Positions 18,335 to 33,969 of a stretch of 36,821 bases of DNA are shown one piece after another. This DNA is from Aquaspirillum serpens DSM 68 (GTDB lineage: Bacteria > Pseudomonadota > Gammaproteobacteria > Burkholderiales > Aquaspirillaceae). Made by a program: the position numbers and the translations under genes. The notes beneath the pieces are model-generated. The model was given only the letters and a program-made list of their open reading frames with translations, made no database searches and was not told the origin of the DNA. The stretch is from NCBI RefSeq assembly GCF_000420525.1, contig NZ_ATVC01000022.1, positions 1 to 36,821 on the forward strand, read 5' to 3'. How positions within the stretch are numbered: position 1 is the first letter of the stretch; each line of letters opens with the position of its first letter.

Positions 18335-18910
18335 TTAAAAGCTCAGTGCCAACAAGGTACCGCCACAGACGGTCAAACCACCCCCTAACACTCGACTGAT
18401 CAGCACAGCCGGCGAACGACCAGCAAGGCTTCGTACCAGCACAAAACCAAGGCCATGTAAAATAGCACTCGCAAGCACAAAACCGATGCCATAGTGCAAA
18501 CCTGACACTGCCGCCGGCATTTCAACCCCATGCGCCGCCCCATGCCACAGGGCAGACAATGCAAATAACACCAGTGCCACACTCGGAGCGATACGGCTCA
18601 ACGCGATCAGCAACAACCCCATTAACAATACCGAACTGGCAATGCCTTGTTCCAACCACGGCAAAGCCCCGCCTTGCCAGCCGATCACCGCGCCAGCAGT
18701 CAACATTAACAAGAATACTGCCGGCGCTTGCCAACGCAAATGATCTCGCTGTTGTGCCGACCATAAACCCACAGCCAGCATCGCCAAAATATGATCTAGG
18801 CCAACAAAAGGATGGCTAAGACCGTGCCACAAGCCACCGTCGGCATGTCCGCTATGCGCACTGGCCGTAGCAGATAACACCATCAACATCGCAGCAACAA
18901 CTTTACGCAT
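18335..18910 (-). CDS. ureJ: HupE/UreJ family nickel permease
   Basis: A 191-residue membrane protein with an N-terminal signal (cleavage expected after ATASA, about residue 18) and about six hydrophobic segments. The HupE/UreJ signature H-x5-DH is present as 'HPFVGLDH' (residues 33-40) followed by '[10 protein letters not shown]'. These proteins move Ni2+ across the membrane for urease or NiFe hydrogenase. It overlaps the ureG stop by 8 bases and is the last gene of the urea block, which points to nickel supply for urease (ureJ) rather than hydrogenase (hupE). The direction and metal are inferred from family and context. Confidence 0.9.
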
Positions 18911-19529
18911 CGATTTCTCCTAATTTTAATAAGCCTTTATGTTCAATAAACTGGATGATGTGCTCTAAACCGTGATTGATTTTTAAGTTAGAAAACACAA
19001 AAGGACGTTCACCACGCATTTTCTTGGCATCACGCTCCATCACTTCTAACGATGCCCCAACCATCGGTGCAAGGTCGATTTTATTAATCACCAACAAATC
19101 GGACTTACAAATACCGGGCCCCCCTTTGCGGGGAATTTTGTCACCGGCAGAGACATCAATCACATACAGCGTTAAATCGGATAATTCTGGGCTAAAGGTA
19201 GCTGCCAGATTATCGCCACCGCTTTCAATAAAAATAATATCCAGCCCTGGGTGTCGTTGATTAAGCCGCGCTACGGCTTCAAGATTGATCGACGCATCCT
19301 CGCGAATCGCCGTATGTGGGCAACCACCAGTTTCAACCCCAATAATCCGATCAGCAGCAAGGGCTTCGTTTTTAACCAGAAATTGCGCATCTTCTTGCGT
19401 GTAAATGTCGTTAGTCACCGCCGCTACGTTGTAGCGCTCGCGCAAAGCCTGACATAACGCCCACGTTAAATGGGTTTTTCCTGAGCCGACCGGCCCCCCG
19501 ATACCCACACGCAAAGCGGGTTGTTTCAT
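18903..19529 (-). CDS. ureG: Urease accessory GTPase UreG
   Basis: A SIMIBI-class GTPase of 208 residues that drives nickel insertion into urease with UreF and UreD. Seen: P-loop 'GPVGSGKT' (residues 12-19), '[13 protein letters not shown]', the metal-binding CPH motif in '[18 protein letters not shown]', '[17 protein letters not shown]', and the guanine-specificity 'NKIDLA'. It has the typical length. ATG with AGAGGAC upstream. It lies 27 bases after ureF and overlaps hupE/ureJ. All residues expected for function are present. Confidence 0.97.
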
Positions 19530-19556
19530 GATGTTGTGTCCTCTGAAAATGAAAAT

Positions 19557-20234
19557 TTATGACCGAAATAAGCGGCTGTATTGGGTTTCGTGTTTCAGTG
19601 CCGCCAAGCTAAAGCGTGGAGCAAAGTTGTTGAGTTCTTCTTCTGGCAGATTCCACGCCAAGGCAGTGGCCTCGTGTAGCTGTGGCAACAGGGCGGAAAT
19701 CAGTTGTTGTCCGGCGCTTTGGCCCATCGGCATCGCCTTCATCAACACCATGACCTGATTTTCTAACCAACTCCATAACCATGCCGCCACCGCCGCCTCG
19801 CCTGCAATGGCAAATTGATGTGCCGCCACCGCCCACACCACCGGCAAGCTATACGGGGTTTGCAATTGCTCCGGCCACCCCTCGGCACCTTCTGGCAACA
19901 CCGACAGTAATTGATGCAGGGAATAGGCCATTTGCTCGGTTTCTAAACGCTGCTCTCGACTTTCACGGCTGGCTAATACCCGTTGATTAAGATGGCCCAA
20001 TAGGGCTTGGTTACCCGCCGCCGCCGCCCGACACGCCTGCGCCAGCAAAGCGGCATCAAAATGTGCCAAGGGCCCCATCAAAATGGCAGACAGCCAATGT
20101 TCCGCACTTTTCGCGTCATACACCCAACCGAGGTCTAACGCGGTCTCTAACCCTTGCGAGTAGCTATAGCCACCAATCGGCAGGGCAGGACTGGCTAGGC
20201 GTAGCCACTGCAAAGCAGCAACATTAAGCGGCAT
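19557..20234 (-). CDS. ureF: Urease accessory protein UreF
   Basis: A 225-residue helical chaperone that couples UreG to the UreD-urease complex. It begins MPLNVAALQWLRLASPALP and has the family's 'PIGGYSYSQGLE'. Two adjacent ATG codons (20237 and 20234) both overlap the ureE stop region; either start fits. The frame remains open to 20348, but that stretch lies over ureE and has no UreF similarity. Coupled translation with ureE is likely. Confidence 0.93.
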   Translation of the reverse strand: MPLNVAALQWLRLASPALPIGGYSYSQGLETALDLGWVYDAKSAEHWLSAILMGPLAHFDAALLAQACRAAAAGNQALLGHLNQRVLASRESREQRLETEQMAYSLHQLLSVLPEGAEGWPEQLQTPYSLPVVWAVAAHQFAIAGEAAVAAWLWSWLENQVMVLMKAMPMGQSAGQQLISALLPQLHEATALAWNLPEEELNNFAPRFSLAALKHETQYSRLFRS

Positions 20235-20730
20235 CATGATGGCGGCCAAATAAATGGAGTTTGGGGGCGTAGTGAAACGCGGATTCTTGCCCATGTGAAT
20301 GGTGATGGCCGCCGCCGTACGCCCCTTGTTCTGGCTCAAACGGTGCAATAATGCGTTCTACCACCAACCCCATTTGGCACAACATCTCGGCCAAAACGTC
20401 ATCTTCCGCCAAACGCAGCCAACCCTGTCCCACTTGCACTTTGACATGGCGATTGCCCAAGTGATAAGCGGCTTTCGCCAAACTGGCGGCATCGGCACAA
20501 CGCACTTGCAACAATTTTTCATCAGCAGCCCGAATCGCGACACAACGCCCATCGTCAGCCAATAAATAATCTCCCTCGCGCAAACTGCGGCTATCCGAGG
20601 GCAATAACACCCCGACCTCTTCCCCATCGGCGGTTTGCGTCAATAAGCGGCGTTTGGTGCGTAATTCGAATGGCAAGACCAACTCGGCCACCGGCACCCC
20701 TTCTTGACAAAATTGTCGTAATACCAACAT
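20224..20730 (-). CDS. ureE: Urease nickel metallochaperone UreE
   Basis: A 168-residue protein that brings Ni2+ to the urease assembly complex. The N-terminal peptide-binding domain has 'LPFELRTKRRLL', and the metal-binding domain has 'AYHLGNRHVKVQV' with the conserved histidine. The C-terminal tail is His-rich (GGGHHHSHGQ, then FGRHHDAA), an extra nickel reservoir in many UreE proteins. ATG preceded by AGGAGG. It starts 9 bases after ureC and its end overlaps ureF. Confidence 0.95.
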   Translation of the reverse strand: MLVLRQFCQEGVPVAELVLPFELRTKRRLLTQTADGEEVGVLLPSDSRSLREGDYLLADDGRCVAIRAADEKLLQVRCADAASLAKAAYHLGNRHVKVQVGQGWLRLAEDDVLAEMLCQMGLVVERIIAPFEPEQGAYGGGHHHSHGQESAFHYAPKLHLFGRHHDAA

Positions 20731-20739
20731 CGCCGCCTC

Positions 20740-22440
20740 CTAAAACAAAAAGTAGCGTTGTGCTAAAGGCAAGACCTGTGCCGGCTCACACCACAACAGT
20801 TGACCATCGGCTTTTACGCGATAATTCTCGGGATCGACTTCAATCACCGGCAGATAGTTGTTGTGCAATAAATCGGTCTTTTTCACCTCACGACAGCCTT
20901 GCACCGCAACCAAACGCTTTTTCAAACCAAGCTGCCCACCGATATCAGCCTCTAATGCAGCTTGGGATATAAAAGTCACGCTTGTTGCAGCGACAGCGGC
21001 GCCATAACTACCGAACATGGGCCGATAATGCACCGGCTGTGGCGTGGGAATACTGGCGTTAGCATCACCCATCACCGCCGCCGCAATCATACCGCCTTTG
21101 AGAATTAAGCTCGGTTTCACCCCAAAAAACATCGGCTTCCACAACACCAAATCGGCCAGTTTCCCAACTTCAATGCTGCCGACTTCATGCGAAATACCGT
21201 GGGTAATGGCCGGATTGATGGTGTATTTGGCGAGATAGCGTTTAATACGGGCATTGTCATGATGCTGACCGTCTTCGGGCAATGGCCCACGCTGCCGTTT
21301 CATTTTGTCGGCTGTTTGCCAACAACGCAGAATGGTTTCTCCCACCCGCCCCATGGCTTGCGAATCAGAGGACATCATCGAAAATGCACCAAGATCGTGC
21401 AAAATATCCTCGGCTGCGATGGTTTCGCGTCGAATACGGCTTTCGGCAAATGCCACATCCTCGGCAATACTCGGGTCGAGGTGATGACACACCATCAGCA
21501 TATCGAGATGTTCGTCAATGGTATTGATGGTGAAGGGGCGAGTCGGGTTGGTGGAGCTGGGCAATACATTCAGTTCACCGCAGGCTTTAATAATATCTGG
21601 CGCGTGCCCACCGCCGGCCCCCTCGGTGTGATAAGTGTGGATGGTGCGGCCTTTGAATGCGGCCAGTGTCGTTTCAATAAAACCCGATTCGTTTAAGGTA
21701 TCGGTATGAATCGCCACCTGCACATCCATTTCATCTGCCACTGTCAGACAATTATCAATCGCCGCTGGTGTAGTACCCCAATCCTCATGCAGTTTTAAGC
21801 CAATCGCCCCAGCGCGCACTTGTTCACGCAGTGGCTCCGGTAAACTGGCATTGCCTTTGCCAGTAAAGCCTAAATTCATCGGGAAGGCTTCTGCGGCTTT
21901 TAACATCTGTGCCATATGCCACGGGCCGGGAGTACAGGTGGTGGCATTGGTCCCTGTGGCTGGGCCGGTGCCACCGCCAATCATGCTGGTAATGCCCGAC
22001 ATCAGGGCTTCTTCGATCTGTTGTGGGCAAATAAAATGAATATGCGTGTCAATGCCGCCGGCAGTAACAATCATCCCCTCCGCCGCAATAATTTCGGTCG
22101 AAGCGCCAATCACAATGTCCACCGCGGGTTGAATGTCTGGGTTACCGGCCTTGCCAATCGCCACAATACGGCCCTGTTTCAAACCAATATCGGCTTTGAC
22201 AATCCCCCAATGGTCAAAAATCAAAGCATTGGTCAATACCGTATCAGCAACATCTGCTGCTAGCGCTTGGCTTTGTCCCATCCCATCGCGAATCACTTTA
22301 CCGCCGCCAAATTTCACCTCTTCACCGTACACGGTGTAGTCATATTCAACCTCGGCAAACAATTCGGTATCGGCCAAACGTACTCGGTCACCCACCGTCG
22401 GGCCGAACATTTCAGCATAGGCTTGTCGTGAGATTTTCAT
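20740..22440 (-). CDS. ureC: Urease alpha subunit
   Basis: Catalytic subunit of urease: urea plus water gives ammonia and carbamate. 566 residues, the standard length. All nickel-site residues are present, offset by one from Klebsiella numbering: His133 and His135 (DTHIHF), carbamylated Lys216 ([12 protein letters not shown]), His245, His271, Asp359 ([10 protein letters not shown]). The flap cysteine and histidine are in 'MVCHHLDPS' (Cys318, His319). The start ATG overlaps the ureB stop as ATGA. No sign of decay. Confidence 0.99.
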
Positions 22441-22742
22441 AATGCCCCCATCACATCACCGTGAAAGCCATACACGTGGCGCGTGCCAGCAAAAGCAACC
22501 AGCTCCACCGTGCGACTTTGACCGGGTTCAAAACGCACCGCTGTCCCAGCAGGGATGTTCAAGCGATACCCCCGCGCTTGTTGGCGGTCGAATAACAACG
22601 CCCGATTCACCTCGGCAAAATGATAGTGCGAGCCAATTTGCACCGGCCGATCACCGCTGTTTGCCACCACCAACGACAGCGTATCGCGGCCTTCATTCAA
22701 CGTGATGTCACCGGCGGCAGGAAGAATTTGTCCTGGAATCAT
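22437..22742 (-). CDS. ureB: Urease beta subunit
   Basis: A 101-residue separate beta chain. It starts [13 protein letters not shown] and has the typical '[17 protein letters not shown]', '[25 protein letters not shown]' region (about residues 52-75) and 'VYGFHG' near the end. Being separate from ureA marks a three-subunit bacterial urease rather than the fused Helicobacter type. It lies 14 bases after ureA and overlaps ureC by 4 bases. Confidence 0.97.
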
Positions 22743-22756
22743 GTTTTTCTCGCTGA

Positions 22757-23059
22757 TTAAATAATGGGCTGGTGCACAGTGACCAGTTTTGTGCCATCCG
22801 GAAAAGTTGCCTCGACCTGAATCTCTGTCACCATCTCGGCAATTCCCTCCATCACATCATCACGACCTAACAAGGTAGTGCCATAGTGCATCAGGTCTGC
22901 GACGGTGCGGCCCTCTCGTGCCCCCTCCATAATCGCCGCACTAATCAATGCCACCGCTTCGGGATAATTCAGTTTCAAACCGCGTGCCCGTCGCCGCTCG
23001 GCCAATAGCGCAGCGGTGAAAATCAATAATTTATCTTTTTCTCGTGGGCTCAGCTCCAT
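22757..23059 (-). CDS. ureA: Urease gamma subunit
   Basis: A 100-residue gamma chain, [17 protein letters not shown], then '[15 protein letters not shown]' and 'GREGRT'-like '[13 protein letters not shown]', ending 'VTVHQPII'. The ATG at 23059 is chosen because AAAGGAGGATGGG stands just before it and the length equals the family standard. The open frame reaching 23332 only overlaps ureD in another frame. Confidence 0.97.
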
Positions 23060-23087
23060 CCCATCCTCCTTTGTTATTGCTGTTCGA

Positions 23088-23912
23088 CTAGGTACGCCAA
23101 ATTCGTGGGGTATCAGCATGTCGCTGATGGGTATGGGGATAAAGCAGTTCTCGTGCCGCCCGTAACCAATGCCACGCCGCTTCTGCGCTGTCGCCAATAA
23201 AACGCGCCAGCCACACTTCGGGTAGTTGTGTTGCTCCTGCCTCCCCCTTGCAGGGCAAAGCCAAAATTTCTTGGTGACAGGCATCAGGAATCTGCCCTGT
23301 CCACAGCAAAGTGGCGATGACACTGTGACCACCTAGCCCAATCGCCGACTGCCATAGTGGATCACTGGCAGCTAGGCGCGTGTGTTCACACCATAACAAC
23401 TGCTGTTGTCGCCAAATTTCGGTGCGCTGTCGCCAATATCCCTGTTGAAATGGTTTGTTACCGGCAGGACGGCCAAAGCACACCACCTCCCCCCACAGCA
23501 AAGCGGCATCGGGTTGCAGATCAAAACGGTTTTGTGATTGCACCTGTGCACCATCAAAGACAATGGTTTCCAAGGGCAGCCACGCTAAACGGCTATGCCG
23601 CGCCAAGTTGACGGTCAAGGTTTGTTGTGCCGCTTGCCCAAAGCCGTTGTACCACTTCGCCGCACCAGCCGATGTGATAAGCACATCGGCATCCTGCTCT
23701 AAGGCAATGTCGAGTGCTAATACATCACCACCGGCAATGCCACCGGGGGGATGCAAAATAATGTGCTGACAGCTGCCATCCGGTTGCACAAAATGTTTTT
23801 GTACCCGCAATGGGCCTTGATGCTGGCGCAAAATCGGGACGGTACGCCCATGTCGTTGACCATAGCGTAGTTGCAAACTGGCATACCACACCGGTGTTCC
23901 CCTCTCGTTCAT
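23088..23912 (-). CDS. ureD: Urease accessory protein UreD
   Basis: A 274-residue scaffold for apo-urease activation, also called UreH. Seen: '[25 protein letters not shown]', with the family's 'GPLRVQKHF', '[12 protein letters not shown]', 'TSAGAAKWY' (TPGATKWYR-like), and '[11 protein letters not shown]'. It lies between urtE (5 bases upstream) and ureA, so the transport and urease genes are physically one run. The Shine-Dalgarno is weak and translation may depend on urtE. Confidence 0.93.
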
Positions 23913-23917
23913 GTGGC

Positions 23918-24616
23918 TTAAATCGCCAATAACTCTCGTACACCCTCGGTAACCATCGCCTGTCCGGCACCGGCTTGCACCACTTCACCACGCGCCATCA
24001 CCACATAACGATCAGCAAGCGCCTCGGCAAAATCGTAATACTGTTCCACCAACACAATTGCCATATCACCGCGTGCCGCCAGTTGTTTAATCACATGGCC
24101 GATGTCTTTGATAATCGAAGGCTGAATGCCCTCGGTTGGCTCATCTAGAATCAGCAATGACGGCTCACTGACTAGGGCTCGAGCAATCGCCAATTGTTGC
24201 TGTTGTCCGCCGGAGAGATCGCCACCTCGCCGGTGGCGCATTTGTGCCAACACGGGGAACATGTCATAGACCGAAGAGGGAATCTGCCGCCCTTTAGCGC
24301 CACGAAAACGCGCTAGCCCCATGCGTAAATTTTCTTCTACCGATAGGCGAGCAAAAATCTCCCGTCCCTGCGGCACATACGCCATGCCACGCTGTACCCG
24401 TTGATGCGGGGAAAGAGAATTGACCACTTGGCCTTGCCAAGTGATCTGGCCGCTGGCAATCGGCAAAACCCCCATTAAACAGCGCAACAGCGTACTTTTC
24501 CCTACCCCATTGCGGCCCAATACACAGGTCACCTCGCCGATAGCAGCAGTGAACGAAATATCCCGCAAGATATGACTGCCACCATAAAACTGATTCAGTT
24601 TTTCAATCTGTAACAT
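23918..24616 (-). CDS. urtE: Urea ABC transporter ATPase UrtE
   Basis: LivF-type ATPase of 232 residues. Walker A 'GRNGVGKST', signature 'LSGGQQQQLAIARAL', Walker B 'LLILDEPTEG' and the H-loop region 'VLVEQYYDFAEAL'. The 'GIQPSIIKDIG' after Walker B is typical of UrtE and LivF. It starts 3 bases after urtD. Assigned to urea, not branched amino acids, because of the surrounding urt and ure genes. Confidence 0.93.
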   Translation of the reverse strand: MLQIEKLNQFYGGSHILRDISFTAAIGEVTCVLGRNGVGKSTLLRCLMGVLPIASGQITWQGQVVNSLSPHQRVQRGMAYVPQGREIFARLSVEENLRMGLARFRGAKGRQIPSSVYDMFPVLAQMRHRRGGDLSGGQQQQLAIARALVSEPSLLILDEPTEGIQPSIIKDIGHVIKQLAARGDMAIVLVEQYYDFAEALADRYVVMARGEVVQAGAGQAMVTEGVRELLAI

Positions 24617-24619
24617 ACT

Positions 24620-25459
24620 TTAGCGCCCCAAATAGACCTCAATCACCCGCTCATCTGCTTGCACCTGCGCTAAGCTCCCCTCGGCCAGCACACTGCCTTC
24701 GGCCAACACCGTCACTCTCTCGGCGATGGCCTCGACAAAAGCCATGTCATGCTCCACCACCATTAAGGAATGATGGCCTTTCAAACTCAGCAGCAATTCG
24801 GCTGTTTTTTCTGTTTCGGCATCGGTCATCCCTGCCACCGGCTCATCCAACAACAACAGCCGTGGGTCTTGAGCTAATAACATGCCAATTTCCAACCATT
24901 GCTTTTGGCCATGAGATAACAAACCCGCCACCCGATGGCGTTGTTCCTGCAACCGCACTCGCAGCAATAACGCTTCAATTCGGTCGCGTTGTTCGCCAGT
25001 CAATCGAGCGCGCAAACTTGCCCACACCGAGCGCGGGCCAGCCAAGGCCAGTTGGAGGTTTTCAAACACCGTCATTGCCTCGAACACTGTCGGCTTTTGA
25101 AATTTCCGGCCAATCCCAAGCTGGGCAATCTCGGCTTCACGATAGCGAGTCAGATCAATGGTTTGTCCGAAAAACACCGCCCCACTATCGGGACGTGTTT
25201 TGCCGGTGATCACGTCCATCATGGTGGTTTTACCAGCACCATTTGGGCCAATGATGCAGCGCAGTTCACCGACACCAATATCCAGATTCAGATGGTTTAA
25301 CGCTTTGAAGCCGTCAAAACTGACGCAAACCTCTTCCAGATACAAAATTGCACCGTGACGGGTATCGAGTTGGCCATCGACAAGGTGAGCGAGTCCCTTG
25401 GCTTCGCCGTCCCAGCCTTCACGCTCAACCACAGCTGTTTTAGGAGAGAAGAGAGTCAT
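24620..25459 (-). CDS. urtD: Urea ABC transporter ATPase UrtD
   Basis: LivG-type ATPase of 279 residues. Walker A 'GPNGAGKTT', signature 'LSHGQKQWLEIGMLL', Walker B 'LLLLDEPVAG' followed by 'MTDAETEKTAELL', a wording common in UrtD. The start is the ATG at 25459: it forms an ATGA overlap with the urtC stop and has GGAGA upstream. The open frame extends to 25657, but this extra part lies inside urtC and is not UrtD-like. The N-terminal 35 residues before the ABC fold are variable. Confidence 0.94.
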   Translation of the reverse strand: MTLFSPKTAVVEREGWDGEAKGLAHLVDGQLDTRHGAILYLEEVCVSFDGFKALNHLNLDIGVGELRCIIGPNGAGKTTMMDVITGKTRPDSGAVFFGQTIDLTRYREAEIAQLGIGRKFQKPTVFEAMTVFENLQLALAGPRSVWASLRARLTGEQRDRIEALLLRVRLQEQRHRVAGLLSHGQKQWLEIGMLLAQDPRLLLLDEPVAGMTDAETEKTAELLLSLKGHHSLMVVEHDMAFVEAIAERVTVLAEGSVLAEGSLAQVQADERVIEVYLGR

Positions 25460-26556
25460 GCTGATTTTCTCCATAAGCGACGCCACCATCCCACCACCCC
25501 ATGTGGCAAGAACAAAGTCGCGGCAATAAAGACGAAACCGAGGAAGAACAACCAATATTCGGGAAATGCCACGGTAAACCAGCTTTTTGCGCCATTCACC
25601 AAACCGGCCCCCAACATCGGGCCGATCAAAGTACCGCGCCCCCCCAAGGCCACCCAAATCACCATCTCAATCGAGTTGGCTGGCGACATTTCACTGGGAT
25701 TGATAATGCCCACCTGTGGCACATACAGCGCACCAGCTAAAGCACATAACACTGCCGACAGCACCCAGATGGTCAATTTGAAATAAAGCGGTGAGTAGCC
25801 ACAGAACATTAAGCGCGACTCGGCATCTCGCACTGCGGTCAAAATCCGACCAAATGGACTGTTGACCAACCAACGCGCCCCCAGCCATGCCAACACCAAC
25901 AACGCCAACGACAACAGGAATAACACCGCCCGTGTCGCTGGTTCAGCAATCCCAAAACCAAGCAAGGTTTTGAAATCAGTAAAACCGTTATTGCCACCAA
26001 AGCCGGTTTCATTACGGAAAAACAGCAACATGGCGGCAAAGGTCAACGCTTGGGTGATGATCGAGAAATACACCCCTTTAATCCGTGACCGGAAGGCCAA
26101 CCATCCAAAGATTCCCGCCACCAGCGCCGGCACCATCACAATCAACACCAATGCCCATAAAAAATGTTCACTGCCCCACCAAAACCACGGCAAGGTTTGC
26201 CAATCGAGAAAGGTCATAAAGGCAGGCAATTCGGCATCGCCTTGTCGCATCAAATACATGCCCATACCATAGCCGCCTAGCGCGAAAAACAAGCCATGAC
26301 CGAGGCTCAATAAGCCGGTGTAGCCCCAAACCAAATCCAAGGCCAACGCCACCACGGCATAACACAATATTTTTCCAGCAAGGGTTAAGGTATAAGCCGA
26401 GATAAACCACGGGTGATCGGCAGGTAACAAGGCATGTGCCAACGGTAATGCCACCCCGAGCAATAACAATGCCGCTAACAGCAATGGCCCCAATTGTGGC
26501 CCTAGCCACGCCCACAGCCGCATTGAATAGGGCTGGCTCATCAGTTCACTTTGCAT
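25456..26556 (-). CDS. urtC: Urea ABC transporter permease UrtC
   Basis: LivM-type permease, 366 residues, about ten membrane segments. Seen: 'LALDLVWGYTGLLSLGHGLFFALGGYGMGMYL', with the conserved GYTGLLSLGH part, and 'VYFSIITQALTFAAMLLFF' typical of UrtC, then the EAA-like loop 'GRILTAVRDAESRLMFCGY'. The ATG at 26556 has AGGGGAAA upstream; the open frame up to 26601 adds 15 unlikely residues. Gap of 16 bases from urtB and ATGA overlap with urtD. Confidence 0.94.
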   Translation of the reverse strand: MQSELMSQPYSMRLWAWLGPQLGPLLLAALLLLGVALPLAHALLPADHPWFISAYTLTLAGKILCYAVVALALDLVWGYTGLLSLGHGLFFALGGYGMGMYLMRQGDAELPAFMTFLDWQTLPWFWWGSEHFLWALVLIVMVPALVAGIFGWLAFRSRIKGVYFSIITQALTFAAMLLFFRNETGFGGNNGFTDFKTLLGFGIAEPATRAVLFLLSLALLVLAWLGARWLVNSPFGRILTAVRDAESRLMFCGYSPLYFKLTIWVLSAVLCALAGALYVPQVGIINPSEMSPANSIEMVIWVALGGRGTLIGPMLGAGLVNGAKSWFTVAFPEYWLFFLGFVFIAATLFLPHGVVGWWRRLWRKSA

Positions 26557-26572
26557 GATATTTCCCCTGAAC

Positions 26573-28168
26573 TTAATCCAACACCCGACCCTTGAGGGCA
26601 AACAAACCCTGTGGCCGTTTTTGAATAAAGAGGATGATTAAAGCCAAAATGGCGATTTTGCCGAGGACTGCGCCCAACGAAGGTTCGAGAATCTTGTTCA
26701 ACATCCCTAAACCAAAGGCACCTAATACCGTGCCCGCCAGTTGCCCGACACCCCCCAACACCACCACCATAAAGCTGTCAACGATATAGCTTTGCCCCAA
26801 ATCAGGCCCGACATTACCGATTTGGCTTAATGCCACCCCACCTAAACCCGCCACACCAGAACCAATGCCAAAAGCCAAGCTATCTACGCGTCCAGTTGGT
26901 ACGCCAACACAGTCGGCCATACGGCGGTTTTGTGTAACAGCGCGGACAAACAGCCCTAAACGGGTGCGGTTGAGCATCCACCATGTCAACAACAACACGG
27001 CACCGACAAAGGCAATAATCACTAAACGATTGAACGGCAGCGTTAAAGCAGGGCTGATAACCCAACCACCCGCCATCCAGCTGGGGTTAGCCACTTCGAC
27101 ATTCTGCGCACCGAACATCACCCGAACCGCCTGCATTAACACCAAGCTCATACCCCACGTTGCGAGCAGGGTTTCTAAGGGGCGGCCATACAGATGACGA
27201 ATCACCAAACGCTCTAGTGCCATACCGATGGCGCAAGTCACTAAAAACGCTACCGGCAATGCCACAATCACATAGGCATCGACCCACGCAGGGGCATAGC
27301 GTTGAAAGGCCAGTTGCACCACATAGGTGCTATAGGCACCCAACATCAACATTTCGCCATGTGCCATATTGATGACACCTAGCAGACCATAGGTGATGGC
27401 CAAGCCAAGCGCCGCCAGCAGTAAGACCGATCCGAGGCTGATGCCGCTAAACAGATGACCCAGTAAATGATCGGTAAATTGTGCCGACTCAAGCTGGGCC
27501 ATTGCACGCAAAGCGGCTTGACGCACTGCCGCTTGTGGCGTGCTATCCGCCAATTCTTGTAACACCACCAAGAGATTGGGGTCGCGGGTGTCGGCAAGGG
27601 TATTGATCGCGGCTAACTGTTGTGGCAGTTGATCGCTGTGCAGCTGGATACGTGCGGTGGCCAGTTGTAAGGCCGTGCGAACGGTGGGTTCTTGTTCACG
27701 CTGTAATTGAGCTTGTAACAACGGCAACCATGCAGGATTTGCAGCGTCTTGTAATAAGCCCACGGCCGCTAAACGCGCTGCGGTATCACCCTGCTGTAAC
27801 TGGGTAGCCGCTTGATAACGCTCTAAGGCCATGCGGAGGCGGTTGTTTAATAACACCGGCTCCGCTTCTGCCGGTAAAGCGGTGAGGCTTTTGCCTGATG
27901 GAATGTCCACCACTTGGCCATCAGGCTGTTGCAGAAAGAATTGGCTTTCGTCGGGTGTTTGATAAACCCGTTCTTCTTGCCATGCCAACGCAGCTTCAGA
28001 ACGTGCCGCTGTCGGTTGTGCCGCCCATTGTTCAATTTGTGCTGGGCGCTGTTCCGGTGAGGTGTTGACCAGTTCAGCCAATGGCGAAGCCACACTCAGG
28101 CTGGCGCAAGACAAGACCATCACAGCGCATACCCACGCCATGAACCGTTGCATCATCGTTTGCCGCAT
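26573..28168 (-). CDS. urtB: Urea ABC transporter permease UrtB with long N-terminal periplasmic domain
   Basis: LivH-type permease, 531 residues from the ATG at 28168 (AGGGGGAAAAC upstream). Residues 1-30 are a signal sequence (ending about SVASP). Residues about 30-235 are a helical, HEAT-like region rich in Ala, Leu and Gln ('AVRQAALRAMAQLE'), known as an N-terminal extension in many UrtB proteins. The permease part follows from about residue 240: 'SGISLGSVLLLAALGLAITYGLLG', then 'INMAHGEMLMLGAY' and 'RMADCVGVPTGRVD'. The role of the extension is unknown; contact with UrtA is plausible but not shown. Confidence 0.93.
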   Translation of the reverse strand: MRQTMMQRFMAWVCAVMVLSCASLSVASPLAELVNTSPEQRPAQIEQWAAQPTAARSEAALAWQEERVYQTPDESQFFLQQPDGQVVDIPSGKSLTALPAEAEPVLLNNRLRMALERYQAATQLQQGDTAARLAAVGLLQDAANPAWLPLLQAQLQREQEPTVRTALQLATARIQLHSDQLPQQLAAINTLADTRDPNLLVVLQELADSTPQAAVRQAALRAMAQLESAQFTDHLLGHLFSGISLGSVLLLAALGLAITYGLLGVINMAHGEMLMLGAYSTYVVQLAFQRYAPAWVDAYVIVALPVAFLVTCAIGMALERLVIRHLYGRPLETLLATWGMSLVLMQAVRVMFGAQNVEVANPSWMAGGWVISPALTLPFNRLVIIAFVGAVLLLTWWMLNRTRLGLFVRAVTQNRRMADCVGVPTGRVDSLAFGIGSGVAGLGGVALSQIGNVGPDLGQSYIVDSFMVVVLGGVGQLAGTVLGAFGLGMLNKILEPSLGAVLGKIAILALIILFIQKRPQGLFALKGRVLD

Positions 28169-28192
28169 TTTGTTTTCCCCCTGTGCATTGGC

Positions 28193-28219
28193 TGTGGGGT
28201 GGGACAGTGCCCACCCACA
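28193..28219 (-). other. Hairpin between urtA and urtB
   Basis: TGTGGGGTGGG (28193-28203) pairs with CCCACCCACA (28210-28219) with one bulged base and a 6-base loop. There is no T run, so it is more likely an mRNA-stabilising or attenuating stem that keeps urtA mRNA above the rest, a common pattern for binding-protein genes. Confidence 0.5.
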
Positions 28220-28242
28220 CAACCAGACAAATCGATGAACCC

Positions 28243-29511
28243 TTATTTACTTTTCACTGGGGTATCGGGTTTTTTGTCATTACCCGCGATAAACGGACTC
28301 CACGGCTGAGCACGAACAGGGGCTTTGGTTTTCCACACTACCGAGAATTGACCATCAGGACGCACTTCACCAATCATCACTGGCTTATGCAGGTGGTGGT
28401 TTTTTTCGTCCATTTTCAGGGTAAAACCAGAAGGGGCATTGAAGCTAACGCCGGCCATCGCTTTACGCACCGCATTGACATCAGTCGTACCCGCCTTTTT
28501 CACCGCCTCGGCCCACATATGGATACCAACATAGGTCGCTTCCATCGGATCGTTGGTGACTAACTTATCAGCATTAGCCATGCCTTTTTTCTTGGCCCAC
28601 GCTTTGTAATCGGTAATCCACTTGGTATTAACAGGGTTTTTGACGCTCATAAAGTAGTTCCATGCCGCCAAATGACCCACCAAGGGTTTGGTATCAATCC
28701 CCTTCAATTCTTCTTCGCCCACTGAGAAAGCGACAACCGGTGTGGTGGTAGATTTCAACCCTTGGTTACCCAATTCTTTATAAAACGGCACATTCGAATC
28801 GCCGTTGATGGTGGAAATCACCGCTGTTTTACCACCGGCAGAGAATTTTTTGATATTGCCAACGATGGTTTGGTAATCACTATGACCGAATGGGGTGTAA
28901 ACCTCTTCGATATCGCTGTCCTTCACCCCTTTTGATTTGAGGAAAGCGCGTAGAATTTTGTTGGTGGTGCGTGGGTAAACATAATCGGTTCCAAGTAAGA
29001 AGAAGCGTTTTGCTTCGCCGCCGTCTTTGCTCATCAGGTATTCAACCGCCGGAATGGCCTGTTGGTTAGGGGCCGCACCGGTATAGAACACATTGGGCGA
29101 CATTTCCTCGCCTTCGTATTGCACGGGGTAGAACAGCAAGCCATTGAGTTCTTCATATACTGGCAACACTGATTTACGCGACACCGATGTCCAACAGCCA
29201 AAGGTCACCGCCACTTTATCTCGGGTCAGTAACTGACGTGCTTTTTCAGCAAATAGCGGCCAGTTCGAGGCAGGATCCACCACCACCGGTTCGAGCTTTT
29301 TACCCAACACCCCGCCCTTGGCGTTGATTTCGTCAATCGTAAACAGAGCCATGTCTTTGAGCGAGGTCTCAGAAATCGCCATCGTGCCAGAGAGCGAATG
29401 CAGCACACCCACTTTAATGGTGTCAGCAGCCAAGACGGTGGACGAAAGACCCGCAGACAACAGGCAGGCGGTGAGGGTGGTCAGTTTCAGAAATAAGCGG
29501 CGGGTGGTCAT
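28243..29511 (-). CDS. urtA: Urea ABC transporter substrate-binding protein UrtA
   Basis: Periplasmic urea-binding protein of 422 residues. The N-terminus has a twin-arginine-like signal (TTRRLFLKLTTLTACLLSAG) with cleavage expected after TVLA, about residue 28. The mature part shows 'DTIKVGVLHSLSGTMAISE', 'FGCWTSVSRKSVLPVYEE' and 'GLLFYPVQYEGEE', all characteristic of UrtA and FmdD-type proteins rather than LivJ. FmdD (short-chain amides) is the main alternative; the urease genes behind it favour urea. ATG with GGGAG upstream. First gene of the urea block. Confidence 0.95.
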   Translation of the reverse strand: MTTRRLFLKLTTLTACLLSAGLSSTVLAADTIKVGVLHSLSGTMAISETSLKDMALFTIDEINAKGGVLGKKLEPVVVDPASNWPLFAEKARQLLTRDKVAVTFGCWTSVSRKSVLPVYEELNGLLFYPVQYEGEEMSPNVFYTGAAPNQQAIPAVEYLMSKDGGEAKRFFLLGTDYVYPRTTNKILRAFLKSKGVKDSDIEEVYTPFGHSDYQTIVGNIKKFSAGGKTAVISTINGDSNVPFYKELGNQGLKSTTTPVVAFSVGEEELKGIDTKPLVGHLAAWNYFMSVKNPVNTKWITDYKAWAKKKGMANADKLVTNDPMEATYVGIHMWAEAVKKAGTTDVNAVRKAMAGVSFNAPSGFTLKMDEKNHHLHKPVMIGEVRPDGQFSVVWKTKAPVRAQPWSPFIAGNDKKPDTPVKSK

Positions 29512-29539: not shown

Positions 29540-29563
29540 TGTTTTTGCTGCAATGCAAAAACA
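29540..29563. promoter_or_regulatory. Perfect 9-bp dyad upstream of urtA
   Basis: TGTTTTTGC (29540-29548) and GCAAAAACA (29555-29563) are exact inverted copies with a 6-base spacer, 29-52 bases before the urtA ATG. It can be an operator for the neighbouring LuxR-type regulator or a hairpin that ends the regulator transcript. No T run follows on the minus strand, which favours the operator reading. Confidence 0.45.
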
Positions 29564-29620
29564 GCTTACCCGTGCGCCCAGTTCGCTTAAATACGTCATT
29601 TGGCGTACACCCGTGCCAGC

Positions 29621-30529
29621 CTAACTGCTACGCCATTTGCTCAAGGCTAACGCCGCCGCTGCAGTGCGGGTTTCAACACCTAACTTGCTGAAAATATGTT
29701 CTAAATGTTTATTGACCGTGCGGGGACTCATACCGAGGATATCGGCAATATCGCGGTTGGTTTTGCCTAAGCTCAGCCAATACAACACTTCGGCCTCGCG
29801 TTGGGTCAATGGAAAAACCTGCATCAGGCTGAGCATACTGGCTTGGTGATTTTCTTCGCGTAACACCAGCAGCCATTCCCCTTCGGTGGTTTGTTGATGC
29901 AGCGATGCCAGCAAGCGCCGGCCAGCGGTTTGATAAACCAAAGCCGAGGGCTCTTGCCCATTGAGATAAGCGGTTTGCGCTTGGGCAATCCATTGCAACA
30001 GCACAGGCGGAGCGGTGTCGCTAAGGCCAAAATAGCTTTCTAACAGCTGGCGCGCCAACGCGGTTTGCCAGACTAATTTACCGCTGGCACTGGCAATCGC
30101 TAAAGTGGCTTGACCAAAAGCGTCGAGGGCGGAACTGGCTTGGGTCAGTTGTCGTGCTTGTTGGATATGGACGGCAATCCGCACCAGCACTTCTTGTGGT
30201 TTTAACGGCTTGGTCACATAGTCGGCGCTGCCAGCAGCAAAGGCGGCTACCACATGTTCACTTTCGGTTAGGCCAGTCATAAACACAATCGGAATCGACC
30301 GCGTGTGAAAATTGGCTTTTAATGCCCGCGCCACGCTAAACCCATCCATGCCGGGCATAACCGCATCAAGCAAAATCACATCGGGCAAGGAGCGTTGCGC
30401 CCGTTGTAATGCTGACTCACCGTCGGTAGCCACCAACACCATATATCCCGCTTCATCCAACGCATCATGCAATAAGGTTAAATTATCCGGCTGATCGTCC
30501 ACAATCAGCACCACACCGCAATGGTTCAT
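29621..30529 (-). CDS. LuxR-type response regulator
   Basis: A 302-residue transcription factor from the ATG at 30529. Receiver residues 1-120: DD at 11-12, Asp55 (VILLDAVMPGMDG), Thr85 in 'FMTGL', Lys107 (VTKPLK). A middle region of about 110 residues (125-232) has no recognised domain. The C-terminal LuxR/NarL helix-turn-helix is 'LTQREAEVLYWLSLGKTNRDIADILGMSPRTVNKHLEHIF' territory, residues about 237-290. The start ATG overlaps the stop of the permease-kinase as ATGA, so the two are a cognate pair. It lies directly before urtA on the same strand and is the obvious candidate regulator of the urea block. Confidence 0.93.
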   Translation of the reverse strand: MNHCGVVLIVDDQPDNLTLLHDALDEAGYMVLVATDGESALQRAQRSLPDVILLDAVMPGMDGFSVARALKANFHTRSIPIVFMTGLTESEHVVAAFAAGSADYVTKPLKPQEVLVRIAVHIQQARQLTQASSALDAFGQATLAIASASGKLVWQTALARQLLESYFGLSDTAPPVLLQWIAQAQTAYLNGQEPSALVYQTAGRRLLASLHQQTTEGEWLLVLREENHQASMLSLMQVFPLTQREAEVLYWLSLGKTNRDIADILGMSPRTVNKHLEHIFSKLGVETRTAAAALALSKWRSS

Positions 30530-33500
30530 ATCGAATTTCCTGTTGTGGCCAATCCGCGCCGAATCCACTCCCGCAGCGCATCAAACTCAAACCGTTTCAC
30601 ATGCTCGCTTGCCACGGCCACAAATTCAGCGTAGCGCGGGTCGAGCATGGCTAAACGTGCCAATTCTTGTTTCATGCCGCGCACATAGCCCAAACCAGCG
30701 GCGTCAAGTAAGGGCAACAGTTCTGCTGCTGGAGGAAAAACCCTTTCTGTTATGGCTGGCACTTCTGGAGTCATGTCCTCCGCCGAATCGGCCAATAACC
30801 ATGACAGTTGTAAACGTTGGCCGATCCAATCTAGCAATTCTTCAATTCGAATTGGCTTTAGCAAAAAGTCCTCGCTGGCAATTCCGACATCGTTTTCTTG
30901 CCCTTTTTCAAACGCATTGGCTGAAATAATGGCTAATTGACAATCGGTTAATTGCTTTTGTCGCAACACGCGCAATGTCTGCCAACCATCCATTCCCGGC
31001 ATGGCCAGATCCATCAATACTAAGTGCGGTTTCAACTCATCGACACACGCCAAACACGCTTCACCGCTGGCAGCTTGACTGACTTCAAACCCCAACTGCG
31101 CCAGCATGGTTGCCAACATTTCGCGATCGGTATCCTCGTTATCCACCAGCAAAATACGCCGCCGCGCACCGAGATAGCCGACACGATTCCGCCGTGGCAG
31201 TTCTTTTGCCGCCACCGCCGCGTGGACATACGGCAAAAATAAGCGCACCGTGAAGTGGCAACCTTCGCCCACACGACTCTGCAAAGTCAGCTCACCGCCC
31301 ATTAAATCCGTCAGCATTTTGCTGATGGTTAAACCCAAGCCGGTGCCACCGACACCACTACTGGCGGCACGCTCAAAGGGTTCGAAAATTCGCATTTGTT
31401 CGGCTTGTGCAATCCCCGGCCCAGTATCAATCACTTCAAAGGTTGCCATATCACGGCGGTAATGCAAACAAAACCGCACGCCACCACGGCGAGTAAATTT
31501 CACCGCATTGCCTAATAAGTTAATTAAAATTTGCCGCAGCCGTTTTTCATCAGCACGCACCACCGCAGGTAAATGTGCAGGGCCGCTAAAAGTAAAATCT
31601 AAGCCCTTATTGCGGGCTTGTAGCTCGAACATTGCCACCAGTTGTTGGATAAATGCCGCAAAATCTAAGGCGCGAGTGTCTAAGCGCAATTTGCCGCTTT
31701 CAATTCGAGCAATGTCCATCGTGCCTTCAATCACCGACAATAAATGGTCACCACTGCGCTGTATCACCTCTACCGCTTGCCGGCGGTGGGGGGGAATCGT
31801 GGCGTCGGCGGCCAAAATTTGGGCATAGCCCAAGAGACTATTCAGCGGTGTGCGTAATTCATGGCTAATGGAAGAGATATAACGGCTTTTTGCCTGATTG
31901 GCTTGTTCTGCCGCATGGCGAGCACGTTTTAACTGTTCATCGGTACGGCGGTGAGAATCGATTTCTTGCATTAACAAGGCTGTTTGTCGATCCGATTCTG
32001 CCTGTGCCACTTCACGACTGCGTGCCGTTAATACCATCCACCATGCCACCACCCCACTGACCAACACCAAAGCCGCCAGTAACCGCAAAAATAAAGCAGG
32101 CAAGGCTTCAGCATACAGCGCATTGGCATCTTGCCATTCAATGTAATACAGCAAACCCAAAATCAAACCCAACACACTGACAATGCCAGCCATCAGCAAT
32201 AAGTAGTGGGCCAAGCCATGCGCCAAATAAGGATGTAACGCCCGTGGCAACAGAGTATGCAAACAAGACATCCATTGTGCTGATAAACGGGCTTGTGGTT
32301 TACAACGATCACCACAACGCACATCTAAGGTGCAGCAAAGCGAACAGATCGACCCTTGGTAGGCAGGACACGTTGCCATATCTGCCGCTTCGTACGATTG
32401 TTCACACACCACACATTGCAGTTGTGTAGCCGAGGCAGCCGGAGGGTGGGGTTGACGCGCTAGGTAATAATGACCTCGGGTTAGCCATGCCAATAAAGGC
32501 GCCGACAAGAACGACACCGACATCGCCACAAAAGCGGAAAACGGTTGAATGTCCTCGCCAAACAGCCCAAGGTGAGCTGCGATAGATAATATTGACGCCA
32601 ATAACATCGCCCCCACGCCGACGGGATTGATGTCATAAAGATGGCTGCGCTTAAACTCAATTCCTTTTGGACTCAAGCCAAGCGGTTTGTTCAGCACCAA
32701 ATCCGCCACCACCGCCATCATCCAAGAAATGGCAATATGCGAATACAAGCCCAATACCTGCCCCAACGCATGAAACACTTCCAGCTCCATCAGCATCAGG
32801 GCAATCGCTAAATTAAACACCACCCACACCACCCGTCCGGGGTGGCTGTGCGTCAGACGAGAAAAGAAATTCGACCACGCCAAAGAACCTGCATAAGCAT
32901 TGGTGACATTGATTTTTAACTGTGAAATCACCACAAATACGGTAGTGACGGCAATCGCTATCGCCGTGTGGTCAAATACATACGAAAAACCAATTAAATA
33001 CATCTGGTTAGGATCAACCGCTTTGTCAGCGGCCACACCATTACGCAGCGCTAAATAGGCCAATAACGCCCCGCCCAACATTTTCATCACCCCCGGTACC
33101 ACCCAACCCGGCCCACCGACAATCACCGCCAACCACCACCGCCCCCGCTTACCTGCCTCTGCTGCTGGCATAAAACGCAAATAGTCGGCCTGTTCGCCCA
33201 TTTGAGTAATCAGCGCAATGCCGACTGTTAATGCCGCACCAAACAAGTGCCAATCAAAACCGGCTGGGGCAGTATGTGCACCGGTGTATTGCCATAAACC
33301 GGTCAGGGCATCAGGGGCATGCCATAAGACAAACAGATAAGGCAGTAGCAATAACACCGCCCAAAGGGGTAAGGTCCATTGTTGTAAGCGACTAATCACC
33401 GTGACCCCGTGCATCACCAACGGCAACACCACCAAAGCACAGACCAAATAGCCCCATGCCGGTGGCAGGCCAAACCCCAGTTCTAGCGCATAGGCCATGA

Positions 33501-33969
33501 TGGCGGCTTCGAGGGCAAAGAAAATAAAGGTAAATGAGGCGTAAATCAGCGAGGTGATCGTTGAGCCGATATAACCAAATCCGGCACCACGGGTCAGCAA
33601 ATCCATATCAACGCCATAACGCGCAGCGTAGTAACTGATCGGCAACCCAGCCAAAAAAATAATTAACCCAGTGGCTAAAATCGCCCAAAACGCATTGAGA
33701 AAGCCCGTTTGCACCATCATGGTCGCCCCAACGGCTTCTAACACTAAAAAAGCAGCCGCCCCACCAGCAGCAGTATTGGCCACTTGCCATAGCGACCAAC
33801 GGCGGAAACGCTGCGGGGTAAAGCGCAGCGCATAGTCCTCGAGCGTTTCGCTGGCAACCCAGCGGTTATAGTCGCGACGGAGGGTCACAATCGGCGGTGG
33901 GGATGAAGTTGGGCGGTCCATACCCAGCAAAGCCAGCAAAAACCCTGCCATCGGTTTTGTTTCTCGCAT
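30526..33969 (-). CDS. NCS1 permease-histidine kinase-receiver fusion
   Basis: A 1147-residue protein from the ATG at 33969 (a TTG precedes it directly). Residues about 32-505 form an NCS1/CodB-like permease with about 12 membrane segments ('RFRRWSLWQVANTAAGGAAA', 'DLLTRGAGFGYIGS', 'QMGEQADYLRFMP', 'KINVTNAYAGSLAWSNFF'). Residues 519-556 carry a Cys cluster. Two further membrane segments (about 585-609, 626-648) lead to a coiled coil and the kinase: His703 in 'SSISHELRTPLNS', N-box 'NLLGNAVKFT', 'DTGPGI', 'GGTGLGL'. A receiver follows at about 937-1050 (Asp987, Lys1038), then an 80-residue helical tail. The likely role is sensing a small nitrogen compound by or through the permease, passing phosphate to the adjacent LuxR-type regulator. 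Ligand unknown. Confidence 0.93.
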   Translation of the reverse strand: MRETKPMAGFLLALLGMDRPTSSPPPIVTLRRDYNRWVASETLEDYALRFTPQRFRRWSLWQVANTAAGGAAAFLVLEAVGATMMVQTGFLNAFWAILATGLIIFLAGLPISYYAARYGVDMDLLTRGAGFGYIGSTITSLIYASFTFIFFALEAAIMAYALELGFGLPPAWGYLVCALVVLPLVMHGVTVISRLQQWTLPLWAVLLLLPYLFVLWHAPDALTGLWQYTGAHTAPAGFDWHLFGAALTVGIALITQMGEQADYLRFMPAAEAGKRGRWWLAVIVGGPGWVVPGVMKMLGGALLAYLALRNGVAADKAVDPNQMYLIGFSYVFDHTAIAIAVTTVFVVISQLKINVTNAYAGSLAWSNFFSRLTHSHPGRVVWVVFNLAIALMLMELEVFHALGQVLGLYSHIAISWMMAVVADLVLNKPLGLSPKGIEFKRSHLYDINPVGVGAMLLASILSIAAHLGLFGEDIQPFSAFVAMSVSFLSAPLLAWLTRGHYYLARQPHPPAASATQLQCVVCEQSYEAADMATCPAYQGSICSLCCTLDVRCGDRCKPQARLSAQWMSCLHTLLPRALHPYLAHGLAHYLLLMAGIVSVLGLILGLLYYIEWQDANALYAEALPALFLRLLAALVLVSGVVAWWMVLTARSREVAQAESDRQTALLMQEIDSHRRTDEQLKRARHAAEQANQAKSRYISSISHELRTPLNSLLGYAQILAADATIPPHRRQAVEVIQRSGDHLLSVIEGTMDIARIESGKLRLDTRALDFAAFIQQLVAMFELQARNKGLDFTFSGPAHLPAVVRADEKRLRQILINLLGNAVKFTRRGGVRFCLHYRRDMATFEVIDTGPGIAQAEQMRIFEPFERAASSGVGGTGLGLTISKMLTDLMGGELTLQSRVGEGCHFTVRLFLPYVHAAVAAKELPRRNRVGYLGARRRILLVDNEDTDREMLATMLAQLGFEVSQAASGEACLACVDELKPHLVLMDLAMPGMDGWQTLRVLRQKQLTDCQLAIISANAFEKGQENDVGIASEDFLLKPIRIEELLDWIGQRLQLSWLLADSAEDMTPEVPAITERVFPPAAELLPLLDAAGLGYVRGMKQELARLAMLDPRYAEFVAVASEHVKRFEFDALREWIRRGLATTGNSI

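Follow-up and report, generated by a model that had tools for sequence, protein, structure and literature searches.

A predicted urea-responsive permease-kinase fusion beside the urea genes of Aquaspirillum serpens

Single-chain sensors in which a transporter is joined to a histidine kinase rest, in the papers we found, on an SLC5 permease and a STAC domain (statements on published work refer throughout to excerpts of the cited papers). Here we compare these systems with a gene of Aquaspirillum serpens DSM 68 that fuses an NCS1-like permease, a histidine kinase and a receiver, and lies together with a LuxR-type partner in front of the urea genes. The window, i.e. the whole stretch of DNA analysed, comprises 36,821 nucleotides (contig NZ_ATVC01000022.1 of assembly GCF_000420525.1, positions 1 to 36,821). 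We consider it probable that the fusion is a urea/amide transceptor kinase and that its partner, as predicted, activates the urea operon.

CrbS/CrbR (MxtR/ErdR) is likewise a transporter-kinase-receiver hybrid with a LuxR partner and a repeat before the -35 region; the CrbR inverted repeat spans -52 to -36, just upstream of an RpoD promoter (PMC5715377). It differs in its SLC5, STAC and PAS parts and its acetate genes, whereas the locus described here has an NCS1-like permease, a Cys module, two additional helices, no PAS domain, urea or amide genes and another palindrome. CbrA, the histidine transceptor of Pseudomonas, shares with the fusion a single chain of transporter and kinase and a domain below the transporter with a possible coupling role; this domain, STAC, occupies the position held here by the Cys tail (PMC13022988). 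As in CbrA, which is reported to be sodium-independent (PMC7918813), the Na2 site is not conserved. Unlike the fusion, CbrA consists of SLC5, STAC and PAS parts without a receiver and serves carbon control through CbrB. RpuS/RpuR of Sinorhizobium fredii, in which an SLC5-STAC kinase controls a transporter gene via a promoter repeat (PMC9100948), is similar in that respect and differs by its SLC5 permease, its imperfect direct repeat and its response to pyruvate.

The fusion would work like the SLC5/STAC kinases but is not a member of them. NCS1 structures rank above SLC5-type ones for its permease model, and in place of the STAC four-helix bundle the structure models, as we judge them, show the Cys module with short strands. 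The known kind is that of the SLC5/STAC kinases; permease type, linker and targets differ here. Among the papers that our searches of openly licensed PMC literature listed, none describes an NCS1-kinase fusion or a urea-sensing kinase in its title or abstract opening. PMC8905175 was considered as a precedent and discarded, its matching words stemming from a mutation list. A hybrid kinase and a LuxR regulator are drawn at a urtABCDE operon in PMC13296017, which treats urtABCDE-formamidase clusters (Ectopseudomonas guguanensis and Pseudomonas veronii are among those published); its excerpts note no permease and assign no function to that kinase, which we compared by description only. Excerpts of PMC13209695 place amiE, fmdA, fmdB and urtABCDE together and name no kinase.

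The fusion protein and its permease

The following parts were distinguished in the fusion:

30526..33951, minus strand: permease-histidine kinase-receiver fusion gene, 1141 aa, a single open frame with the same architecture in relatives
32452..33843, minus strand: NCS1-like LeuT-fold permease, about residues 37-500 (AlphaFold2, CodB/Mhp1 Z-scores, hhalign)
32302..32415, minus strand: Cys module, residues 513-550, with eight Cys invariant in an alignment of 65 sequences
32032..32217, minus strand: two extra membrane helices, roughly residues 579-608 and 617-640, which continue into the signalling helix (AlphaFold2 model)
31234..31893, minus strand: HisKA (687-753) and HATPase_c (801-906), phospho-acceptor His697 (Pfam)
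30829..31155, minus strand: C-terminal receiver, residues 933-1041, Asp981 (Pfam Response_reg and box reading)

The anatomy of the fusion is read directly. Its frame starts at ATG 33951, with TTG 33972 as an alternative start, and stops at TGA 30528-30526; residue numbers of HisKA and HATPase_c are Pfam positions minus 7, to fit the ATG start. HisKA, HATPase_c, receiver and catalytic boxes together make it a hybrid histidine kinase: the kinase boxes are intact (SHELRTPL 696, NLLGNAVKF 811, DTGPGI 842, GTGLGL 869) and the receiver Asp lies within LVLMDLAMPGMDGW, residue 977. A Pfam search detected no PAS or other input domain in the window protein. About 100 residues after the receiver (1042-1141) are without Pfam match, and a PADLOC scan returned weak matches only, to the receiver. 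The preliminary description, made from the letters alone, had proposed one frame with a Cys cluster, two extra helices, all kinase boxes and a receiver, and this reading agrees with the frame, the invariant Cys, the model helices and Pfam. The overlap that it reported between fusion and regulator, ATGA (ATG 30529-30527, TGA 30528-30526), and the 109 bp separating the regulator gene from urtA are likewise borne out by the coordinates.

The permease has no Pfam match even at E 10, the PF02133 model matches none of 69 family members at 0.1 (window included), and direct Pfam, PDB-sequence and profile searches with it gave no match. In the absence of a direct sequence match, its placement relies on structural comparison, on hhalign and on an intermediate sequence. 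The AlphaFold2 model of residues 1-690 (mean pLDDT 90.3, pTM 0.89) shows the 5+5 helix fold of LeuT type, as in NCS1 transporters, and is nearest to CodB and Mhp1: both take the top Foldseek ranks, and VIA-align gives Z 34.4 for CodB and 29.2 for Mhp1, the next family reaching about 24. Alignment by hhalign with nine PF02133-type permeases yielded a probability of 98.9% (E 3.5e-17, 399 columns). The intermediate, a kinase-free relative (L211) of 28% identity, matches PF02133 at 3.6e-9. The permease is NCS1-like and forms its own branch outside the Pfam NCS1 model; given the structural and profile match without a PF02133 match, we call it NCS1-like rather than a Pfam NCS1 member. Of the complete NCS1/CodB-like permease first proposed, fold and profile relationship have stood, whereas a PF02133 match has not been found.

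With CodB and Mhp1 the permease shares the fold and aligned pocket positions; it differs from them by an identity of only ~15%, the missing PF02133 match, Lys346 at the position of Mhp1 Thr313, the Cys tail and the fused kinase. In the alignment F144, E148 and N351 correspond to Mhp1 W117, Q121 and N318, which touch substrate in Mhp1 (PMC4195764). As to whether the substrate residues are kept, a check suggested earlier, the answer is therefore mixed: Asn is retained, while Trp is replaced by Phe and Gln by Glu. F68, a few residues from an alignment gap, stands at the position of Mhp1 Gln42, where CodB has Phe33 (PMC9379551). E148, K346 and N351 are invariant across 76 aligned sequences, stand-alone permeases among them. 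The permease is also better conserved among relatives than the kinase part (tblastn panel). The invariant K346 aligns on TM8 with Mhp1 Thr313, which we take to be an Na2 sodium-site residue, and this departure from the Na2 site suggests that the permease may be sodium-independent. The corresponding Na2 residues of CodB are Thr278/279 (PMC9379551).

The Cys module is probably a treble-clef or RING-like zinc site. Support for a zinc finger is weak: searched alone, the module finds faint treble-clef, RING, FYVE and PHD look-alikes (best E 0.5), and Pfam zinc-finger matches are scattered and weak. Beyond it, the model shows membrane helices at 579-608 and 617-689, the membrane end of the latter being estimated at about residue 640. 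Stand-alone permeases of the family (538-559 aa; L153, L155, L224) also possess the Cys-rich tail, with all eight Cys in L224 and some missing in the other two. The presence of the tail in these proteins suggests that it goes with the permease branch and did not arise for the sake of the kinase.

Relatives and their neighbouring genes

Next, we examined how widely the fusion occurs. Of the genomes searched, 13 of 60 relatives, 21 of 369 in the class and 71 of 398 in the phylum gave matches at E <=0.001, counts that include the source genome itself and weak matches to plain permeases. A scan of genome contigs yielded at least 565 relatives, the best 80 of which form the 'genome contigs' set; the other locus sets are the phylum draw (54), relatives/class (26) and plasmid/phage (7). 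All these sets contain close relatives and a few overlapping loci, so that counts over them are not counts of independent events. Plasmid records matching the fusion number 528, 342 of them from Klebsiella. In Sinorhizobium meliloti 1021 the kinase is found on pSymB near 1622186, with an operator at about 1620462.

Across the fetched loci we read 157 permease frames of at least 1000 aa, and the fusion is kept as a single frame in relatives of three proteobacterial classes; the earlier guess that the architecture may exist elsewhere was thus correct. A kinase-receiver part follows the permease in 51/54 phylum-draw loci and in 79 of the 80 best genome contigs. The paired regulator is present in 48/54 phylum-draw, 72/80 genome-contig, 22/26 relatives/class and 6/7 plasmid/phage loci. 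Other outputs occur as well, namely a kinase without receiver in L196, L209 and L223, and a PAS-PAS-kinase-receiver arrangement in L232. In the rows and stretches examined, annotators name the gene 'ATP-binding protein', 'response regulator', ArcB or simply hybrid kinase, none of which mentions the sensor part. Second permease-kinase copies with stops, which may be decaying copies or start-site effects, were seen in L207 (genome G564; one TAG and one TAA) and L231 (G195; one TAA).

Neighbours were scored with a tblastn panel (urt, ure, formamidase) within each fetched stretch. Such genes lie nearby in 51/54 phylum-draw, 62/80 genome-contig, 16/26 relatives/class and 5/7 plasmid/phage loci, altogether 134 of 167. 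This is the repeated linkage to urtA or ure genes that the preliminary description had named as support; the contrary outcome it had named, homologues mostly away from nitrogen genes, did not occur. Two of the three phylum-draw misses lie at contig ends and the third is the distant permease L211. Among ten loci that lack urea genes or have an odd architecture, several keep the paired regulator, and no common alternative partner was recognised by eye in the surrounding frames. A creatininase-family gene is named beside the kinase in annotated stretches; purine or allantoin breakdown genes are not named there, no dedicated search having been made.

The neighbours fall into two types. The urea type consists of window-type Urt and urease, the amide type of urt-like genes accompanied by a formamidase (FmdA) and an aliphatic amidase (AmiE); fmdA occurs at 32/54 phylum-draw loci. 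These types are phylogenetically coherent on the permease tree (FastTree): over 132 labelled rows (83 urea, 49 amide; 34 unlabelled and 2 double-labelled rows left out, long branches flagged) the label changes only 4 times, as against at least 32 in each of 100 shuffles. The family is thus linked not only to urea, as first read, but also to short-chain amides. The closest relatives of the window, L023 and L024, belong to the urea clade, the window itself being outside that tree. The window contains urease and gave no formamidase, FmdB or aliphatic amidase match.

Residue 313 of the permease is Asp in 81/83 urea-labelled rows, Glu in 39/49 amide rows and Asn in both rows with urease plus formamidase. 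As a specificity switch it was set aside, since there are only 4 independent pairs, on average 1.3 of them changing in the same direction. Because of these few changes we keep it as a lead only, a possible specificity residue.

Two divergent pairs deserve mention. In L224 the stand-alone permease with all eight Cys lies beside formamidase and has an operator-bearing divergent promoter in common with the kinase, and in Acinetobacter L153 a stand-alone permease relative diverges from the kinase across one operator site. Both pairs support the view that permease and kinase share a ligand. The L153 record, labelled Acinetobacter phage MD-2021a, has ordinary bacterial genes (katE, fadD, art transport) flanking the kinase and looks like a piece of bacterial chromosome. 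L151, on a Klebsiella plasmid, and L304, on an E. coli chromosome, carry a formamide-type locus near clpK/hsp20 and insertion sequences; their transporter is annotated as a urea transporter although it stands beside formamidase.

The partner regulator and the predicted operator before urtA

Downstream of the fusion, the window contains:

29621..30529, minus strand: receiver-LuxR (GerE) response regulator, Asp55 (Pfam Response_reg and GerE), starting in the ATGA overlap
29589..29610 (core 29592-29607), no strand assigned: predicted operator, palindrome TACGYCA-NN-TGRCGTA (matrix from other genomes)
29563..29568, minus strand: -10-like hexamer TAAGCT, beginning 31 bp beyond the operator centre in the direction of urtA
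28243..29511, minus strand: urtA, urea ABC transporter binding protein (TIGR03407, 590.8 bits)
23918..28222, minus strand: urtB, urtC, urtD, urtE (TIGR03409, TIGR03408, TIGR03411, TIGR03410)
18335..23912, minus strand: ureD, A, B, C, E, F, G and a ureJ/hupE-like gene (UreD Pfam, urease alpha model, frames)

The regulator combines a receiver with a GerE helix-turn-helix and is a response regulator of the NarL/FixJ (LuxR) type. To look for its binding site we turned to 43 divergent gaps of amide-type loci: TACGT-N6-ACGTA is present in 20 of them (shuffled maximum 3) and TACG-N8-CGTA in 35. A matrix trained on 35 amide-type sites, all from other genomes, reaches its top score in the window, 24.0, at 29589-29610, inside the 109-bp gap before urtA; the next score is 7.2. 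The 16-bp consensus has a single exact match in the 2.61-Mb genome, the site before urtA. A regulator site at unrelated operons and not at urtA, which the preliminary description had named as evidence to the contrary, is not what this prediction gives. With up to 2 mismatches the consensus matches the genome 22 times, as against 40 for the reversed control.

Over 3.19 Mb of loci the matrix detects 102 sites scoring at least 14, training sites included (shuffled 5, 5 and 1), and 98 of these lie 43-286 bp upstream of where the match to a panel gene starts, in most cases urtA, ureA or the kinase. In loci outside the training set, duplicates removed, a site precedes urtA in 32 of 42 cases. Of 22 urtA genes that exceed the cut-off and lie outside the fetched kinase stretch (the G307 urtA, beside its kinase, excluded), 16 have it, namely all 6 on the kinase contig at about 16-27 kb and 10 of the 16 located on another contig or at a distance of over 1 Mb. 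None of 19 urtA genes from 16 order-mate genomes without kinase match has the site, and random segments taken from loci without the amide label contain it in 8 of 605 cases. Compared with 0/19, Fisher's test gives p 6.7e-9 for 32/42 and p 4e-5 for 10/16, kinship not being corrected for. The link from regulator through operator to urtA is strongly inferred by genome comparison. In L097 and L227/L228, with two kinase-regulator copies within 10 kb, an operator scoring at least 14 occurs only at the copy adjoining urtA.

The position of the site fits a promoter. Among 51 sequences without the amide label, 35 have a TANNNT that starts exactly 31 bp past the site centre (next offset 2); among the amide ones, 9 of 38 do. 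If the hexamer occupies -12 to -7, the operator centre would lie at about -43 of the urtA promoter, where the CrbR motif (-52 to -36) also sits, and the operator would overlap the would-be -35 box. Just past the hexamer, over the predicted urtA start, an inverted repeat GTTTTTGC-ATTGCA-GCAAAAAC spans 29541-29562; several relatives have a TGCACTGCAACAA-like element at the equivalent place, and the repeat is possibly a second control site.

UrtA to UrtE exceed the curated NCBIfam cut-offs, and urease alpha is matched. Names of ureA, B, E, F, G and J follow gene order and tblastn query matches at ure loci of other genomes, and are in part assumed. From urtA through the ureJ-like gene all frames have the same orientation and no gap exceeds 101 bp; on account of these short gaps and the common direction, urtABCDE and the ure genes probably form one operon. 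An Rfam match to the 5' ureB sRNA (RF02514, 120 bits) at 22008-22293 of the plus strand, antisense within ureC, is probably due to conservation of the urease alpha coding sequence and not to an RNA gene.

How the fusion may act, and what else could explain the locus

We propose a two-component system with the following course of events. The permease would bind urea in the LeuT-type central site; in sister clades the corresponding ligand would be formamide or acetamide. On binding or transport the permease would shift, and the Cys module beneath it, together with the two helices, would relay this shift to the kinase. The kinase would then phosphorylate the LuxR-type partner, while the fused receiver would serve as an intermediate or as a phosphate sink. 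The phosphorylated partner would bind the palindrome at about -43, a class II position, switching on urtABCDE-ureDABCEFGJ. Urea as ligand, the direction of the signal and the coupling role of the Cys module are only inferred.

Several observations weigh against this proposal. The predicted site is missing at 10 of the 42 held-out urtA upstreams and at 6 of the 22 further urtA genes, and the control genomes are related at the order level only. A dyad search in 54 ureA upstreams revealed no clearly enriched palindrome (best 4, shuffled maximum 3), and the matrix gives weak sites at only some of them. The strict pattern, searched in 16 kinase-bearing genomes, has 8 sites, 5 at urtA or kinase and 3 elsewhere, and is absent from 10 genomes; a visual check of the frames in 3 kb around the extra sites of G005 and G652 brought up nothing recognisable as a urea or amide gene. 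Urea and amide genes are lacking from the stretch in 10/26 relatives/class, 18/80 genome-contig and 2/7 plasmid/phage loci, some at contig ends. Of 27 genomes listed for such loci, 22 have UrtA over the cut-off somewhere and 5 have none. Finally, the CbrA kinase works without its permease (PMC7918813), so a fused permease need not be the sensor.

This last point leads to an alternative in which urtA is regulated as described, the permease is a mere transporter or anchor and an intracellular signal (nitrogen status, energy) is sensed by the kinase or, through zinc or redox, by the Cys module. Signalling by CbrA persists after loss of the SLC5 domain, and a connection between CrbS/MxtR and the quinone redox state has been reported (PMC7918813); eight invariant Cys would also be compatible with such sensing. 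We nevertheless hold it unlikely, as the window protein is devoid of a recognisable input domain, the permease surpasses the kinase part in conservation and keeps invariant residues at the expected pocket positions, and the neighbour type tracks the permease tree. Much the same doubt attaches to the idea that the sensor answers a related compound (formamide, acetamide or a urea precursor) and controls the urea genes only indirectly. Amide-linked loci are indeed common, with both formamidase and aliphatic amidase identified, but L023 and L024 group with the urea clade, the window has urease without amide enzymes, and residue 313, for all its few independent changes, differs between the two types. 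The palindrome might also belong to another regulator, such as one of general nitrogen control, with the kinase pair as a mere neighbour. Similar repeats are bound by LuxR-type and other regulators and the operator is a predicted one; its absence from all urtA genes of kinase-free genomes, set against its presence at most distant urtA genes of kinase-bearing ones, makes this explanation very improbable. That the fusion arose by chance or as an annotation artefact without function of its own hardly needs to be entertained, being refuted by single-frame conservation in three proteobacterial classes.

Returning to the urea/amide transceptor kinase, the earlier idea that an NCS1-type permease tied to urtA serves as sensor for urea or a urea precursor gains support from linkage and the predicted operator. 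On balance we also favour, somewhat more cautiously, a wider claim: that NCS1-type transceptor kinases form a widespread but unrecognised family which detects urea and short-chain amides in Alpha-, Beta- and Gammaproteobacteria and carries the Cys module in the place of STAC, and that its ligand has switched several times between formamide or acetamide and urea along with the operon. The urea- and formamide-operon clades make ligand specificity testable. A role is also suggested for the locus on the 342 Klebsiella plasmid records. Many soil, water and host-associated bacteria would gain a candidate urea/amide sensor with a precise predicted operator for urea uptake and urease genes. If true, this would be a dedicated membrane urea sensor, and transporter-kinase sensing would have been invented a second time, independently of SLC5/STAC. 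Two unrelated permease types in one role would offer a comparison set for how a transporter signals to a kinase and would show transceptor kinases to be a general design.

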